NCBI GenBank assembly: GCA_021647705.1
Contig: JAKIUF010000022.1
Location: 1 to 64,000, forward strand
Direction: 5' to 3'
DNA length: 64,000 nucleotides
Source: Gammaproteobacteria bacterium
GTDB lineage: Bacteria; Pseudomonadota; Gammaproteobacteria; SZUA-152
Shown here: in pieces, positions 4,558 to 32,058 of the stretch
How positions within the stretch are numbered: the first letter of the stretch is position 1
Layout: every line of letters begins with the position of its first letter
Notes under the pieces: model-generated
What the model saw: the letters and a program-made list of their open reading frames with translations, nothing else
What the model was told of the DNA's origin: nothing
Database searches by the model: none
Position numbers and translations under genes: made by a program

Positions 4558-4630
4558 GTAGGGTGGCATGTTTTTTTGCCCACGCGGATGCGGAACCACC
4601 CCGTGGGCACAAACTACGTGCCCACCCTAC
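4558..4630. repeat. Intergenic palindromic repeat, family C (copy 1)
   Basis: GTAGGGTGGCATG... at the left pairs with ...CGTGCCCACCCTAC at the right, enclosing a second inverted pair (GCCCACGCGG / CCGTGGGC). It is one of four complete copies (also 5248-5321, 5551-5624, 30457-30559), and a short related palindrome lies at 26941-26961. It is 80 bases upstream of slyD. Confidence 0.8.
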
Positions 4631-5247: not shown

Positions 5248-5790
5248 GTAGGGAGGGCATGTTTTTTTGCCCACGCGGATGTGGAATTAGCGCGTGGGCA
5301 CAAACTACGTGCCCACCCTACCTTCTGCCTTCTATTTCAAATCTTGAGAGTGATTTTTTGTGTGTCGAGTAATAAACACAGAGGTCGCAGAGGCACGGAG
5401 GCACAGAGAAAAACAAATAAAAAACTCTGTGCCTCTGCGTCTCCGTGGCCTCTGCGTTAATAATACCGACTTTAAAAACTGCTTATCGGGTAACCGAAAT
5501 ACAAAACGGTCTTTGTCATTTATTAACTGATATTACATAAACCTCAGACTGTAGGGTGGGCATGTCTTTTTGCCCACGCGGATGTGGAATTAGCGCGTAG
5601 GCACAAACTACGTGCCCACCCTACCTTCTGCCTTCTATTTCAAATCTTGAGAGTGATTTTTTGTGTGTCGAGTAATAAACACAGAGGTCGCAGAGGCACA
5701 GAGAAAAAAATAAAACTCTGTGCCTCCGTGGCCTCTGTGTTAATAACGCTGATTTAAAAAAACGCGTATCAGCTAAGCAAAGTACAAAAC
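5248..5790 (+). repeat. Tandem duplication of a repeat C + repeat B unit (period 303 bp)
   Basis: The convergent gap between slyD and dctM holds two head-to-tail copies of one unit. Each starts with a family C palindrome (5248-5321 and 5551-5624), followed by the shared stretch CTTCTGCCTTCTATTTCAAA and a family B hairpin (about 5341-5534 and 5638-5790). The C starts are exactly 303 bases apart. The second hairpin lacks part of the arm found in the first. There is no open frame of note, and dctM ends just beyond. Confidence 0.85.
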
Positions 5791-28368: not shown

Positions 28369-30342
28369 TTATTCACCGAGACCCATCTGGATATAACCCG
28401 TGGGACAGACATCGGCACAGATGTGACAACCGATACATTTGGAATAATCAGTAGCCACGTAACGTCCCATCGTAGATTCCTCTTTTTTCACTTTGAACAC
28501 GGCATCCTGCGGGCAATAAATAATGCAGTTGTCACATTCAAAGCACATACCGCAACTCATGCAGCGTTTGGCTTCGGCGACGGTGTCCTCTTCGGACAAT
28601 GCATTCATGCGTTCTTCAAAGTGGCCCAGCACTTCGTCAGAGGCGGGTACGTCTTCGGTGCGAACGTGACGCGCTTCGTGGGCAAAATGCCCGAGGAACA
28701 GTTTATCTGCAGGAATAATCTGATGTGCAGAACGATCTTCGTAGTTATGAATGGCAAAATCAGCGTCAGCGGTGCCATGCTGGCCTCGGTCAATGCCGCG
28801 TACCTTTGCGTCACCTTCGGGGGCAAAGTGCGCAGGTTCATGATGGGTTTCACGCAGCTTGTTCAGCAGGTTGAAATGATGCACGTCCACTTTCGGACGT
28901 TTGCCCGTTTCTTCATTTTTCAGGTAGTGGTCGATGCTTTCTACGGCCACCGATGCCTGACCGATAACTGTGGTTAACAGATGGGGTTGCACGATGTCGC
29001 CCGCAACAAAGAAGCCGGGTTTATTGGGCACTTGAAAGTTTTTGTCAGCGTCGATCAGGCCACGGTCATTACCAAATTCTTCCATACCTTTCAGGTTGCC
29101 GGTTTGACCGATAGCGGAGACGATGAGATCGGCGGCGATGTCGTATTCAGAATCGTCGATGGGCGTCATGTTCTTGCCTTCCCATTTCAGTTTGCGTACG
29201 CGCAGGGCTTTGGCACGACCGTTATCTCCCATAACCACGGCAATCGGATCAATGGAATCGATGATCTCCACACCTTCGCGGGTGGCGTCATCTATTTCAT
29301 GTTGGGCGGCGGCCATACTGGAGACGGGATGGCGTGACAGCAGGGCGACTTCAGCGCCCTCACGGTTGGCAACACCGGCTACATCATGTGCCGTCTGGCC
29401 GAGGATGATGTGTTCCGGCCGGTCATTTTCGTGGACATCGGTAATCTTGCCGATACGACGGGCCACAGAGGCCACGTCGATGGAGGTATCACCACCGCCA
29501 ATCACTACCACCTTGCCGGTGACACCTTTCAGACGGCCTTCATTAAAAGCGGCGAGGAAGGCAACGCCAGAGAGACAATTGCTGGCTTCAGTGAAATTGT
29601 CCACCGGCAGATCCCGACCGGATTGTGCGCCGATGGCAAACAGTACCGCGTCAAAATCTTTTTCCAGTTGTTTCAGGGTAATGTCTTCGCCCACACGGGT
29701 TTGTGATTTTGTTTCCACGCCCATATTGATGATGCGGTTCATTTCGCCATGCAGCACATCACGCGGGGTGCGATAGCCGGGAATACCGTACATCATCATG
29801 CCGCCCAGATCTTCGTGATCATCAAAAATCGTGCAAGCATGGCCTTTCAGGCGTAATTGATATGCAGCAGACAGCCCGCAGGGGCCACCACCGATGATGG
29901 CGACTTTTTTGCCGGTGTCAGCACCGGGGGTAAATTCAAGACCGGCATCCAGTGCGCTGTCGCCGATGAATTGTTCTACGGCATTAATGCCCACAAAGTC
30001 TTCCACTTGATTACGGTTGCAACCATCCTGACAAGGTGCAGGGCAGACACGGCCCATGACCGAAGGAAAGGGATTGGCTTGGGTGGAACGACGAAAAGCA
30101 TATTCCTGCCAGTCCATACCGTCGGCCGGTTTTTCGATACCACGTACGATGTTCAGCCAGCCGCGAATGTCTTCGCCGGAAGGGCAGCTGCCCTGGCATG
30201 GTGGTGTTTGATGCACATAAGTGGGGCATTTGTGGGTGCGGTCGCCATCAAAAATCTGTTCGCTCCAACGGGTGACTTCGTGGTCACCATCTTTGTATTT
30301 GCGAAACGTGTGTGCCTTTACTTCATCTGCTGGTGTCGCCAT
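28369..30342 (-). CDS. dsrL: DsrL, NAD(P)H:acceptor oxidoreductase of the sulfur-oxidation pathway
   Basis: A 657-residue cytoplasmic iron-sulfur flavoprotein related to the small subunit of glutamate synthase. The N-terminal cysteine region has CPTYVHQTPPCQGSCPSGED, the FAD-binding Rossmann motif is VAIIGGGPCGLSAAYQL, and the NAD(P)H-binding motif is VVVIGGGDTSIDVASVA. The C-terminal ferredoxin domain has CMSCGMCFECDNC and CIGCHICADVCP. In sulfur oxidisers it is proposed to take electrons from DsrAB and reduce NAD(P)+; it is a marker of the oxidative pathway. The ATG at 30342 with AGGAGA 8 bases upstream is preferred over an ATG seven codons earlier. Confidence 0.95.
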   Translation of the reverse strand: MATPADEVKAHTFRKYKDGDHEVTRWSEQIFDGDRTHKCPTYVHQTPPCQGSCPSGEDIRGWLNIVRGIEKPADGMDWQEYAFRRSTQANPFPSVMGRVCPAPCQDGCNRNQVEDFVGINAVEQFIGDSALDAGLEFTPGADTGKKVAIIGGGPCGLSAAYQLRLKGHACTIFDDHEDLGGMMMYGIPGYRTPRDVLHGEMNRIINMGVETKSQTRVGEDITLKQLEKDFDAVLFAIGAQSGRDLPVDNFTEASNCLSGVAFLAAFNEGRLKGVTGKVVVIGGGDTSIDVASVARRIGKITDVHENDRPEHIILGQTAHDVAGVANREGAEVALLSRHPVSSMAAAQHEIDDATREGVEIIDSIDPIAVVMGDNGRAKALRVRKLKWEGKNMTPIDDSEYDIAADLIVSAIGQTGNLKGMEEFGNDRGLIDADKNFQVPNKPGFFVAGDIVQPHLLTTVIGQASVAVESIDHYLKNEETGKRPKVDVHHFNLLNKLRETHHEPAHFAPEGDAKVRGIDRGQHGTADADFAIHNYEDRSAHQIIPADKLFLGHFAHEARHVRTEDVPASDEVLGHFEERMNALSEEDTVAEAKRCMSCGMCFECDNCIIYCPQDAVFKVKKEESTMGRYVATDYSKCIGCHICADVCPTGYIQMGLGE

Positions 30343-30456
30343 AGCGTCAGTCTCCTGATCCACTGGTGTGTCGGGTGTGTTTTACGCACCATTAACGGTG
30401 ATTCAACAATCAACGTTAAAATGGTGCATAAAATTCATCCTGCCTATTTGTCTTAT

Positions 30457-30559
30457 GTAGGGTGGGCACGTTTTTTATGCCCACGCGTGTCTTGTTTTTT
30501 AATTCAGTTGTAGCGTTAATTTAATATCCGCGTGGGCACAAAAAACGTGCCCACCCTAC
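30457..30559. repeat. Family C palindromic repeat between dsrL and dsrK
   Basis: GTAGGGTGGGCACG (30457-30470) and CGTGCCCACCCTAC (30546-30559) are perfect inverted ends. GCCCACGCG and CGCGTGGGC form an inner pair, so nearly the whole 103 bases can fold into a long hairpin. The right end overlaps the dsrK stop codon at 30556-30558: the CTA of CCCACCCTAC is the TAG that ends DsrK. The rest of the dsrK-dsrL gap (30364-30456) shows only AT-rich leader sequence. Confidence 0.85.
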
Positions 30560-32058
30560 GTTTTAGTTCCCAGCTGGATGGCATCGCCAACCACCTGGTG
30601 CAAGCTGGTAATCATGTCCATGGGAAATTGATACGCGGGCAAGGCCTTGCTGAACTGGGCTTTGCAAATAGCACAAATGGCCACCATGGAGTTGACGCCG
30701 TGTTCATCCACCACCTGCTTCAATGCCTGCATGCGTGGCATGGCACCTTTGATGCGAATTTCCATCAGGTCATCGGTCAGCAAGCCGCCACCACCGCCAC
30801 AACAAAATGTATTTTCATGAATAGTTTCGGGGGACATGTCAAAAAAGTGATTGGCCGAGGCGGTGATTAATGCACGGGGTAAAATAAACTGTCCGCCGGG
30901 TATGTTGCCCATGCGCGAGGCGCGTGCCACATTGCAGGAGTCATGAAAGGTGATGCGCCGGTGATCGTTGGCTTCTTTATCAAGGTTTAAGGCACCGCGC
31001 TGAATTAAATCGTAAGTGAATTCGACTATGTGCTGCGGTGCGGGATAGTTGGGATCAAGAAAATCAAACGGGCCCACCAGCGTGTTCCAGAAGCTGTAGG
31101 CCACACGCCAGGCATGACCGCATTCGCCGACGATAATACGTTTAACGCCCAGTTCTTCGGCAGCATCCCGAATGCGCTGAGCCACTTTTTTCAGGTTATC
31201 ACCACTGCCGATGAACATGGAAAAATTAGCAGCCTCGGAGGCATACGAGGACAACGTCCAGCTGATACCGGCCTGATGGAAGACCTTGCCGTAACCAATC
31301 AATCCGTCAATATGCGGTTCGGCAAAAAAATCAGCAGAGGGTACAATGAGCAATACATCAGCACCTTTCACATCCACCGGATATTTCACCGCAACACCGG
31401 TGTCTTCTTCTACTTCTTCTTCCAGGTTTTCCAGTGTGTTGATCAGGGCTTTTTCAGGCAGACCCAGATTGTTACCGACAGTCTGTAATTTGCCCAGAAT
31501 TTCGTTACAGTATTTCTGACCGTGACCCACGGTATCCATGATGTCGCGCGCAGCCATGGAAATTTCGGCGGTGTCGATGCCGTAAGGGCAAAACACGGAA
31601 CAGCGACGACATTGCGAACATTGATGGAAGTAGCTGTACCATTCATCCAGTACACTCTTATCCATGTCGCGGGCACCGACAAGTTTGGGAAAATGCTTGC
31701 CCGCAAAGGTGTAATAACGGCGGTAGATACTGCGCAATAAATCCTGACGCGCCACCGGCATGTTTTTGGGATCTTTGGTGCCGAGGTAATAATGGCACTT
31801 GTCGGCGCAGGCTCCGCATTTTACGCAACTGTCGAGGAAGGTGCGCAAGGCACGGGAGCCGTCCACCAGTTCACCCAGACGGGTAACGGCTTTTTCTTCC
31901 CAGTTGTCCACCAGCTTGCCGGGGAATCCGAGTTTTTCATTGTGTTGAGCTTTGGCCGGATACGGGCTGCTATGTACCATCGAATTCACCTCATACTTCG
32001 GTGTATCGATGATTTCGATATTTTTAAATAGCTCGGGTGTATCGAATTTAGCGGCCAC
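30556..32058 (-). CDS. dsrK: DsrK, HdrD-like iron-sulfur subunit of DsrMKJOP
   Basis: A 500-residue cytoplasm-facing protein related to heterodisulfide reductase subunit D. Two [4Fe-4S] motifs are CVKCGACADKC and CSQCRRCSVFCP. The CCG-type site that carries the special cluster is FHDSCNVARAS with FCCGGGGGLL. DsrK is believed to act on the DsrC cysteines (trisulfide or disulfide) and to exchange electrons with DsrM. The short C-terminal tail QLGTKT ends at a stop codon contributed by a palindromic repeat, so the last residues may differ from relatives. dsrM lies 46 bases upstream. Confidence 0.95.
   Translation of the reverse strand: MAAKFDTPELFKNIEIIDTPKYEVNSMVHSSPYPAKAQHNEKLGFPGKLVDNWEEKAVTRLGELVDGSRALRTFLDSCVKCGACADKCHYYLGTKDPKNMPVARQDLLRSIYRRYYTFAGKHFPKLVGARDMDKSVLDEWYSYFHQCSQCRRCSVFCPYGIDTAEISMAARDIMDTVGHGQKYCNEILGKLQTVGNNLGLPEKALINTLENLEEEVEEDTGVAVKYPVDVKGADVLLIVPSADFFAEPHIDGLIGYGKVFHQAGISWTLSSYASEAANFSMFIGSGDNLKKVAQRIRDAAEELGVKRIIVGECGHAWRVAYSFWNTLVGPFDFLDPNYPAPQHIVEFTYDLIQRGALNLDKEANDHRRITFHDSCNVARASRMGNIPGGQFILPRALITASANHFFDMSPETIHENTFCCGGGGGLLTDDLMEIRIKGAMPRMQALKQVVDEHGVNSMVAICAICKAQFSKALPAYQFPMDMITSLHQVVGDAIQLGTKT

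Follow-up and report, generated by a model that had tools for sequence, protein, structure and literature searches.

The dsrK stop codon of a gammaproteobacterium lies in the GTAG head of a REP dimer

The closest described counterparts of the repeat considered here are the GTAG-tagged REP families. According to Di Nocera et al. (2013; PMC3733652), they carry GTAG at one end of a 20–40 bp palindrome, reach high copy numbers, form head-head dimers with units 20–100 bp apart and are located just after genes, to whose flanking ORFs the GTAG termini often give a TAG stop codon (termed opal there). Nunvar et al. (2010; PMC2817692) describe a Haemophilus REP of the form GTAGGGTGGGCTT..AGCCCACC and 3' ends of rayt genes, which encode REP-associated tyrosine transposases (RAYTs), inside BIMEs; a 2021 study of TnpAREP (PMC8266576) gives GTAG a role in recognition or cleavage, and in both sources the RAYT gene lies between inverted REPs. 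A passage of PMC12306157, drawn from its reference 17, states that REPs less than 16 nt from a stop codon can lower translation via ribosome stalling.

In the window analysed here, a 64,000-nucleotide stretch of DNA, dsrK (family cut-off, 400 bits) is followed on the same strand by a gene which we take to be dsrL, a name that comes from the initial annotation and from operon order. The spacer between the two genes measures 213 nt if the ATG at 30342 is the start of the second, as an AGGAG upstream of it suggests; the ORF list also offers a GTG at 30363. At the dsrK side of this spacer lie two inverted arms of 31 nt each, 97% complementary and 41 nt apart, whose outer 14 nt (GTAGGGTGGGCACG and CGTGCCCACCCTAC) are perfectly inverted. 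The right arm reads GTAG-GGTGGGCAC-GTTTTTT-GTGCCCAC-GCG, and the left arm differs from it by one base. Both arms are REP hairpins of the GTAG-tagged type, short palindromes that bear GTAG at one of their ends, and together they make up a head-head dimer (REPIN/BIME) of 103 bp with its GTAG ends outside. On the minus strand dsrK ends ACT AAA ACG TAG GGTGGGCAC..., where the TAG is part of the GTAG head of the arm, just as had been claimed for an inverted-end repeat, then called family C, that overlaps the dsrK end and holds its minus-strand stop. The strong hairpin said to separate dsrK from dsrL is also there: the predicted RNA fold of positions 30440–30600 has −81.4 kcal/mol (z = −11.67), none of 200 shuffles being equally stable, and its stem includes the stop codon. 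A second, different dyad within the remaining spacer is also found in genome G006 of the same genus, where most of the REP dimer is lost.

Table 1. Coordinates of the features at the dsrK 3' end, in window positions
Feature	Position	Strand	Remarks
dsrL-like gene	28369..30342	-	Pyr_redox_2 and Fer4 domains; NF009410, 705.6 bits; probable start at 30342
Remaining dsrK-dsrL spacer	30343..30456	.	Holds a different second dyad, 30373-30393 / 30420-30440
Second REP unit, inverted	30457..30487	+	GTAG head outward; forms with the first unit a 103-bp head-head dimer
Spacer between the REP units	30488..30528	.	41 nt
REP unit at the dsrK end	30529..30559	-	GTAG head 30559-30556; hairpin 30532-30554; gives dsrK TAG 30558-30556
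dsrK	30556..32058	-	500 aa; C-terminus ...QLGTKT + TAG; NCBIfam DsrK NF045796, 574.8 bits

The repeat thus shares the terminal GTAG, the copy number (see below), the dimer arrangement, the position beside gene 3' ends and the TAG supply with the families of Di Nocera et al. (PMC3733652), but the dsrK copy has a longer loop, and neither dsrK nor the present organism is among the cases in the parts of that paper available to us. Its head and the start of its stem are the same as in the Haemophilus REP (PMC2817692). The dsrK case is a well-documented further instance of the stop supply already known for GTAG REPs.

Copy numbers agree with the initial view of an inserted, mobile-type repeat. In the 4.44-Mb genome to which the window belongs, the core TAGGGTGGGC occurs at least 122 times compared with 6 times for the pattern read backwards, and GTAGGGTGGGCAC at least 68 times compared with zero, all copy counts being lower bounds because part of the genome is masked. 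Among the places listed, the cores are dispersed over many contigs. Within the 64-kb window, with two mismatches allowed, the motif count (26) is weakly above the shuffle mean (18). Further cores in the window are located at 4619, 5310, 5552–5623, 26950 and 39888, the last without the second palindrome half. For a sample of ends we took the stretches around 115 of the 122 cores, together with a few extra cores that these contained, leaving out contexts already represented and ends preceded by less than 600 nt. Among the resulting 119 distinct ends, the G of GTAG is kept in 114, and 105 have both the head and the second palindrome half; 35 head-head pairings no more than 300 bp apart were found in the genome. 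The REPs lie beside gene 3' ends: around the 105 complete heads, all from this one genome, stops of ORFs of 100 or more codons (not all of them confirmed genes) fall at the TAG of the head in nine cases, in the preceding 60 nt in 26 and in the following 60 nt in four.

The genome has 13 matches to Y1_Tnp (PF01797), 12 of them above the cut-off. The match on contig C27 is a RAYT (NF047646, 188.4 bits; cut-off, 80 bits), and all four proteins tested matched this family at 188–200 bits. Degraded copies of the dsrK-type REP flank this intact RAYT, a difference from the systems described in PMC2817692 and PMC8266576. The same contig holds a 1127-bp element (L018, 1501–2627) that is bounded by REPs identical to the dsrK REP over 33 nt and contains decayed RAYT pieces; it is located a few kbp from the intact gene. 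Three elements of 243–244 bp in the genome (L195, L219 and L221), more than 90% alike, hold a RAYT C-terminal fragment between REPs, a situation resembling that of the rayt 3' ends in BIMEs of PMC2817692; L215 (234 bp) is more distantly related to them. We inspected the flanks of eight RAYT-sized hits in relatives and of two hits in the own genome. Intact long-form GTAGGGTGGGCAC REPs flank the RAYT of G005 and one of those of G011, and a short form, GTAGGGTGGGCA(C/T)TGCCCACC, adjoins the RAYTs of G010 and G009 and the second one of G011. A different REP, GTAGGGTGGAAC, is present at the RAYT-like hit of G007 and at one hit in G004; no REP was seen in the inspected flanks of the second G004 hit, and the RAYT-like hit L263 of the own genome has a GTAGGTTGGGGTG REP that differs from the dsrK type. 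These neighbourhoods (G007, both G004 hits and L263) without a dsrK-type REP count against the explanation proposed below. Thus a cognate RAYT flanked by this REP is found with degraded copies in the own genome, and with intact copies in the decayed element, in G005 and in G011; RAYTs and a decayed RAYT lying between these REPs place the dsrK element in a RAYT-REP system. Judging from these sequences, the own RAYT may have moved the dsrK copy.

A search of 57 genomes gave matches in 29 and 30 dsrK loci, to which 80 of 182 further listed loci were added. When all 110 were examined, one ran off its contig, 17 were repeats of others at the dsrK end and 92 had distinct ends. Loci identical at the dsrK end were L033 and L061 (WFQM01000068.1), L034 and L063 (DROS01000090.1), L036 and L064 (QIGJ01000063.1), L037 and L065 (NVUB02000221.1), and L060 and L062 (JALSGT010000012.1). 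Within the genus, 11 copies with a 3' end were obtained from 10 genomes (G008 is cut off and G004 gave no match). All 11 end in ...QLGTK plus one residue, and their stops coincide in the alignment. The four with a REP on the stop (G000, G002, G006 and G007) all end ACG TAG, giving GTK-T, whereas the seven without one all have Asp (G001, G003 twice, G010 and G011) or Glu (G005 and G009) before a TAA or TAG of their own. Since GTK and the stop position are common to all copies, what changed is the stop codon and one residue, not the tail. The initial annotation had the insertion rewriting the last codons (GTKT); this stands for the final residue and the stop codon, and fails for GTK. Its expectation that relatives lacking the repeat would differ at the C-terminus likewise holds for one residue and is refuted for the stop position. 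In three copies, the two of G003 and that of G011, a short REP hairpin begins 3–7 nt after the stop, and in the sister genus g3 three of the six dsrK loci (L042, L043 and L045) have a GTAGGGTGG REP whose head lies 26–37 nt after the stop. The G003 bin contains two differing dsrK copies (L032 and L060), with 98% and 96% identity to the protein of the window, and possibly represents mixed strains.

Three features of these ends count against the proposed explanation. The dsrK of G005 ends GAG TAG G and has GTAG although a REP body is missing, which shows that chance can produce these four letters on their own. The dsrK nucleotide tree does not unite the four GTKT genomes, which are interleaved with G003 and G009 (node supports there, 0.26–0.95), indicating that loss, recombination or repeated insertion was involved; descent of all four from one ancestral insertion within one clade is unsupported. 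Among the spacers of the aligned relatives, no exact empty site fitting both flanks was found. A faint echo of the ancestral AAAGAC directly after the element was judged too short for use as empty-site evidence.

Other genes end on this REP as well. Fifteen frames open for at least 80 codons enter the 105 complete heads, ten in the frame of the TAG and five in the other two frames. Pfam supports seven of the ten, namely DsrK, DJ-1/PfpI, CobQ, a CobB-like protein, HisI, phosphoglycolate phosphatase (Gph) and an ArsC family protein, so that the search for other stops within the element, called for by the initial annotation, yielded six further supported genes. The remaining three (L154, L170 and L198) have no Pfam support, and gene calls outside the supported set are open frames only. 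Among the five other-frame cases Pfam supports one, RlmB, which reads into the REP; this gene (L222, 961–1719) has REP-coded last residues, RVGTAP. Seven of the eight supported genes are therefore in the TAG frame compared with one third expected (P = 0.0026, from a small, post hoc sample). This lean was measured by the frame ratio and not by a Poisson measure, which was set aside because any frame entering the head in the TAG phase must end there.

Four of these genes were compared within the genus, 12 genomes being searched for each. Among ten close Gph orthologs, the stop lies in the GTAGGGT of a REP or its remnant in five and is a TAA without a REP in four, and G002 (ATAGGGT) is doubtful; the length is 221 residues in nine of the ten. 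At the Gph 3' ends L264–L268 and L271, different REP forms or remnants sit on the same stop codon, as if one REP had replaced another. The REP TAG ends three of ten HisI orthologs, all of 127 residues with a final Ser or Pro; of the seven without it, three have 126 residues, three have 127 and one has 133. Nine ArsC-like orthologs are readable at the end (two others run off their contigs, and another match is a paralog at 50%): four have 117 residues and the GTAGGGT ending, and the five without it have 113 to 121. CobQ has a REP stop in the own genome only, and two other full orthologs have different tails. One row of this comparison seemed to show a very long open frame, an artefact that masked bases had produced. 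Stops made by a REP, with small changes at the C-terminus, thus recur in the genus.

We consider it about 90% probable that the dsrK element is a GTAG-tagged REP head-head dimer, spread by a RAYT, that landed on the dsrK 3' end and supplied its TAG stop. A non-autonomous REP repeat would have been spread by the RAYT, and a copy would have settled on the dsrK 3' end with its GTAG head in the frame where TAG is a stop. The codon before the stop would thereby have changed from Asp or Glu to Thr, with DsrK still 500 residues long, a change that was probably nearly neutral for the protein. In the mRNA, the stop would lie within the base of the long stem, with a local hairpin from 1 nt downstream.

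REPs protect upstream mRNA, and Liang and colleagues are said to have found in 2015 that stop-proximal E. coli REPs lower translation. The hairpin 1 nt after the stop makes an effect on DsrK translation or on the upstream mRNA plausible, and the insertion may have had a modest post-transcriptional effect of either kind, stalling at the stop or mRNA protection, which could shift DsrK output relative to DsrL. A stronger reading seems to us unlikely, namely that selection keeps the REP at the dsrK stop for its control of the DsrK:DsrL ratio, exerted through ribosome stalling or protection of the upstream mRNA. The local hairpin has z = −4.9 over 48 nt (mononucleotide shuffles), and six of the 11 genus copies have, in differing sequence forms, a hairpin with z ≤ −2 that starts no more than about 7 nt from the stop; the REP heads of the three g3 loci also speak for such a role. 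The dsrK hairpin falls within the 15 nt for which stalling is reported in the passage of PMC12306157 cited above. On the other hand, such a hairpin is absent from five of the 11 genus copies, including G006 despite its REP TAG, and the same REP type stands at the ends of many unrelated genes. The dsrK case also differs from the E. coli REPs in that its REP includes the stop codon. A further possibility, that REPs repeatedly occupy the dsrK 3' end in this family and are kept there since a hairpin uncouples DsrK from DsrL output, is suggested by REPs covering the stop in four genomes of the genus, hairpins 3–7 nt after it in three copies and heads 26–37 nt after it in three sister-genus genomes; we regard it as improbable.

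It is very improbable that the element acts between dsrK and dsrL as an intrinsic terminator or attenuator of transcription. It is a stable, GC-rich stem between two genes, but no T-tailed GC stem exists on the minus (dsr) strand in 30300–30700; the single hit there (30532–30554) is on the opposite strand, shuffles give 0.5 hits, and the sequence is dispersed more than 100 times in the genome. A sigma-70 consensus scan of the dsrK-dsrL spacer gave no promoters. Least probable of all is an IS630/Tc1-like (DDE) MITE with TA target duplication, for which the stop codon would have offered the TA. Although TA is present at both outer ends of the dimer, the base outside it is a conserved G (114 of 119 ends) and not a random, unrelated flank; each end also forms a hairpin by itself, and the enzyme associated with the repeat is a RAYT, a tyrosine transposase of the HUH type.

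Our literature search found no paper joining dsrK with extragenic palindromes and nothing on REP, termination codon and stalling together, and the matches examined for REPIN and stop codon, judged by title, were all unrelated. The REP dimer at dsrK provides a clean comparative case, with relatives that have and lack the repeat, in which a RAYT-type repeat takes over the stop of a core energy-metabolism gene. If the 7:1 lean to the harmless frame held in more genomes, it would mean that, owing to the GTAG tag, an insertion at a gene end is nearly neutral. The genomes with and without the repeat are natural pairs for asking whether REPs close to a stop codon tune expression in bacteria other than E. 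coli.
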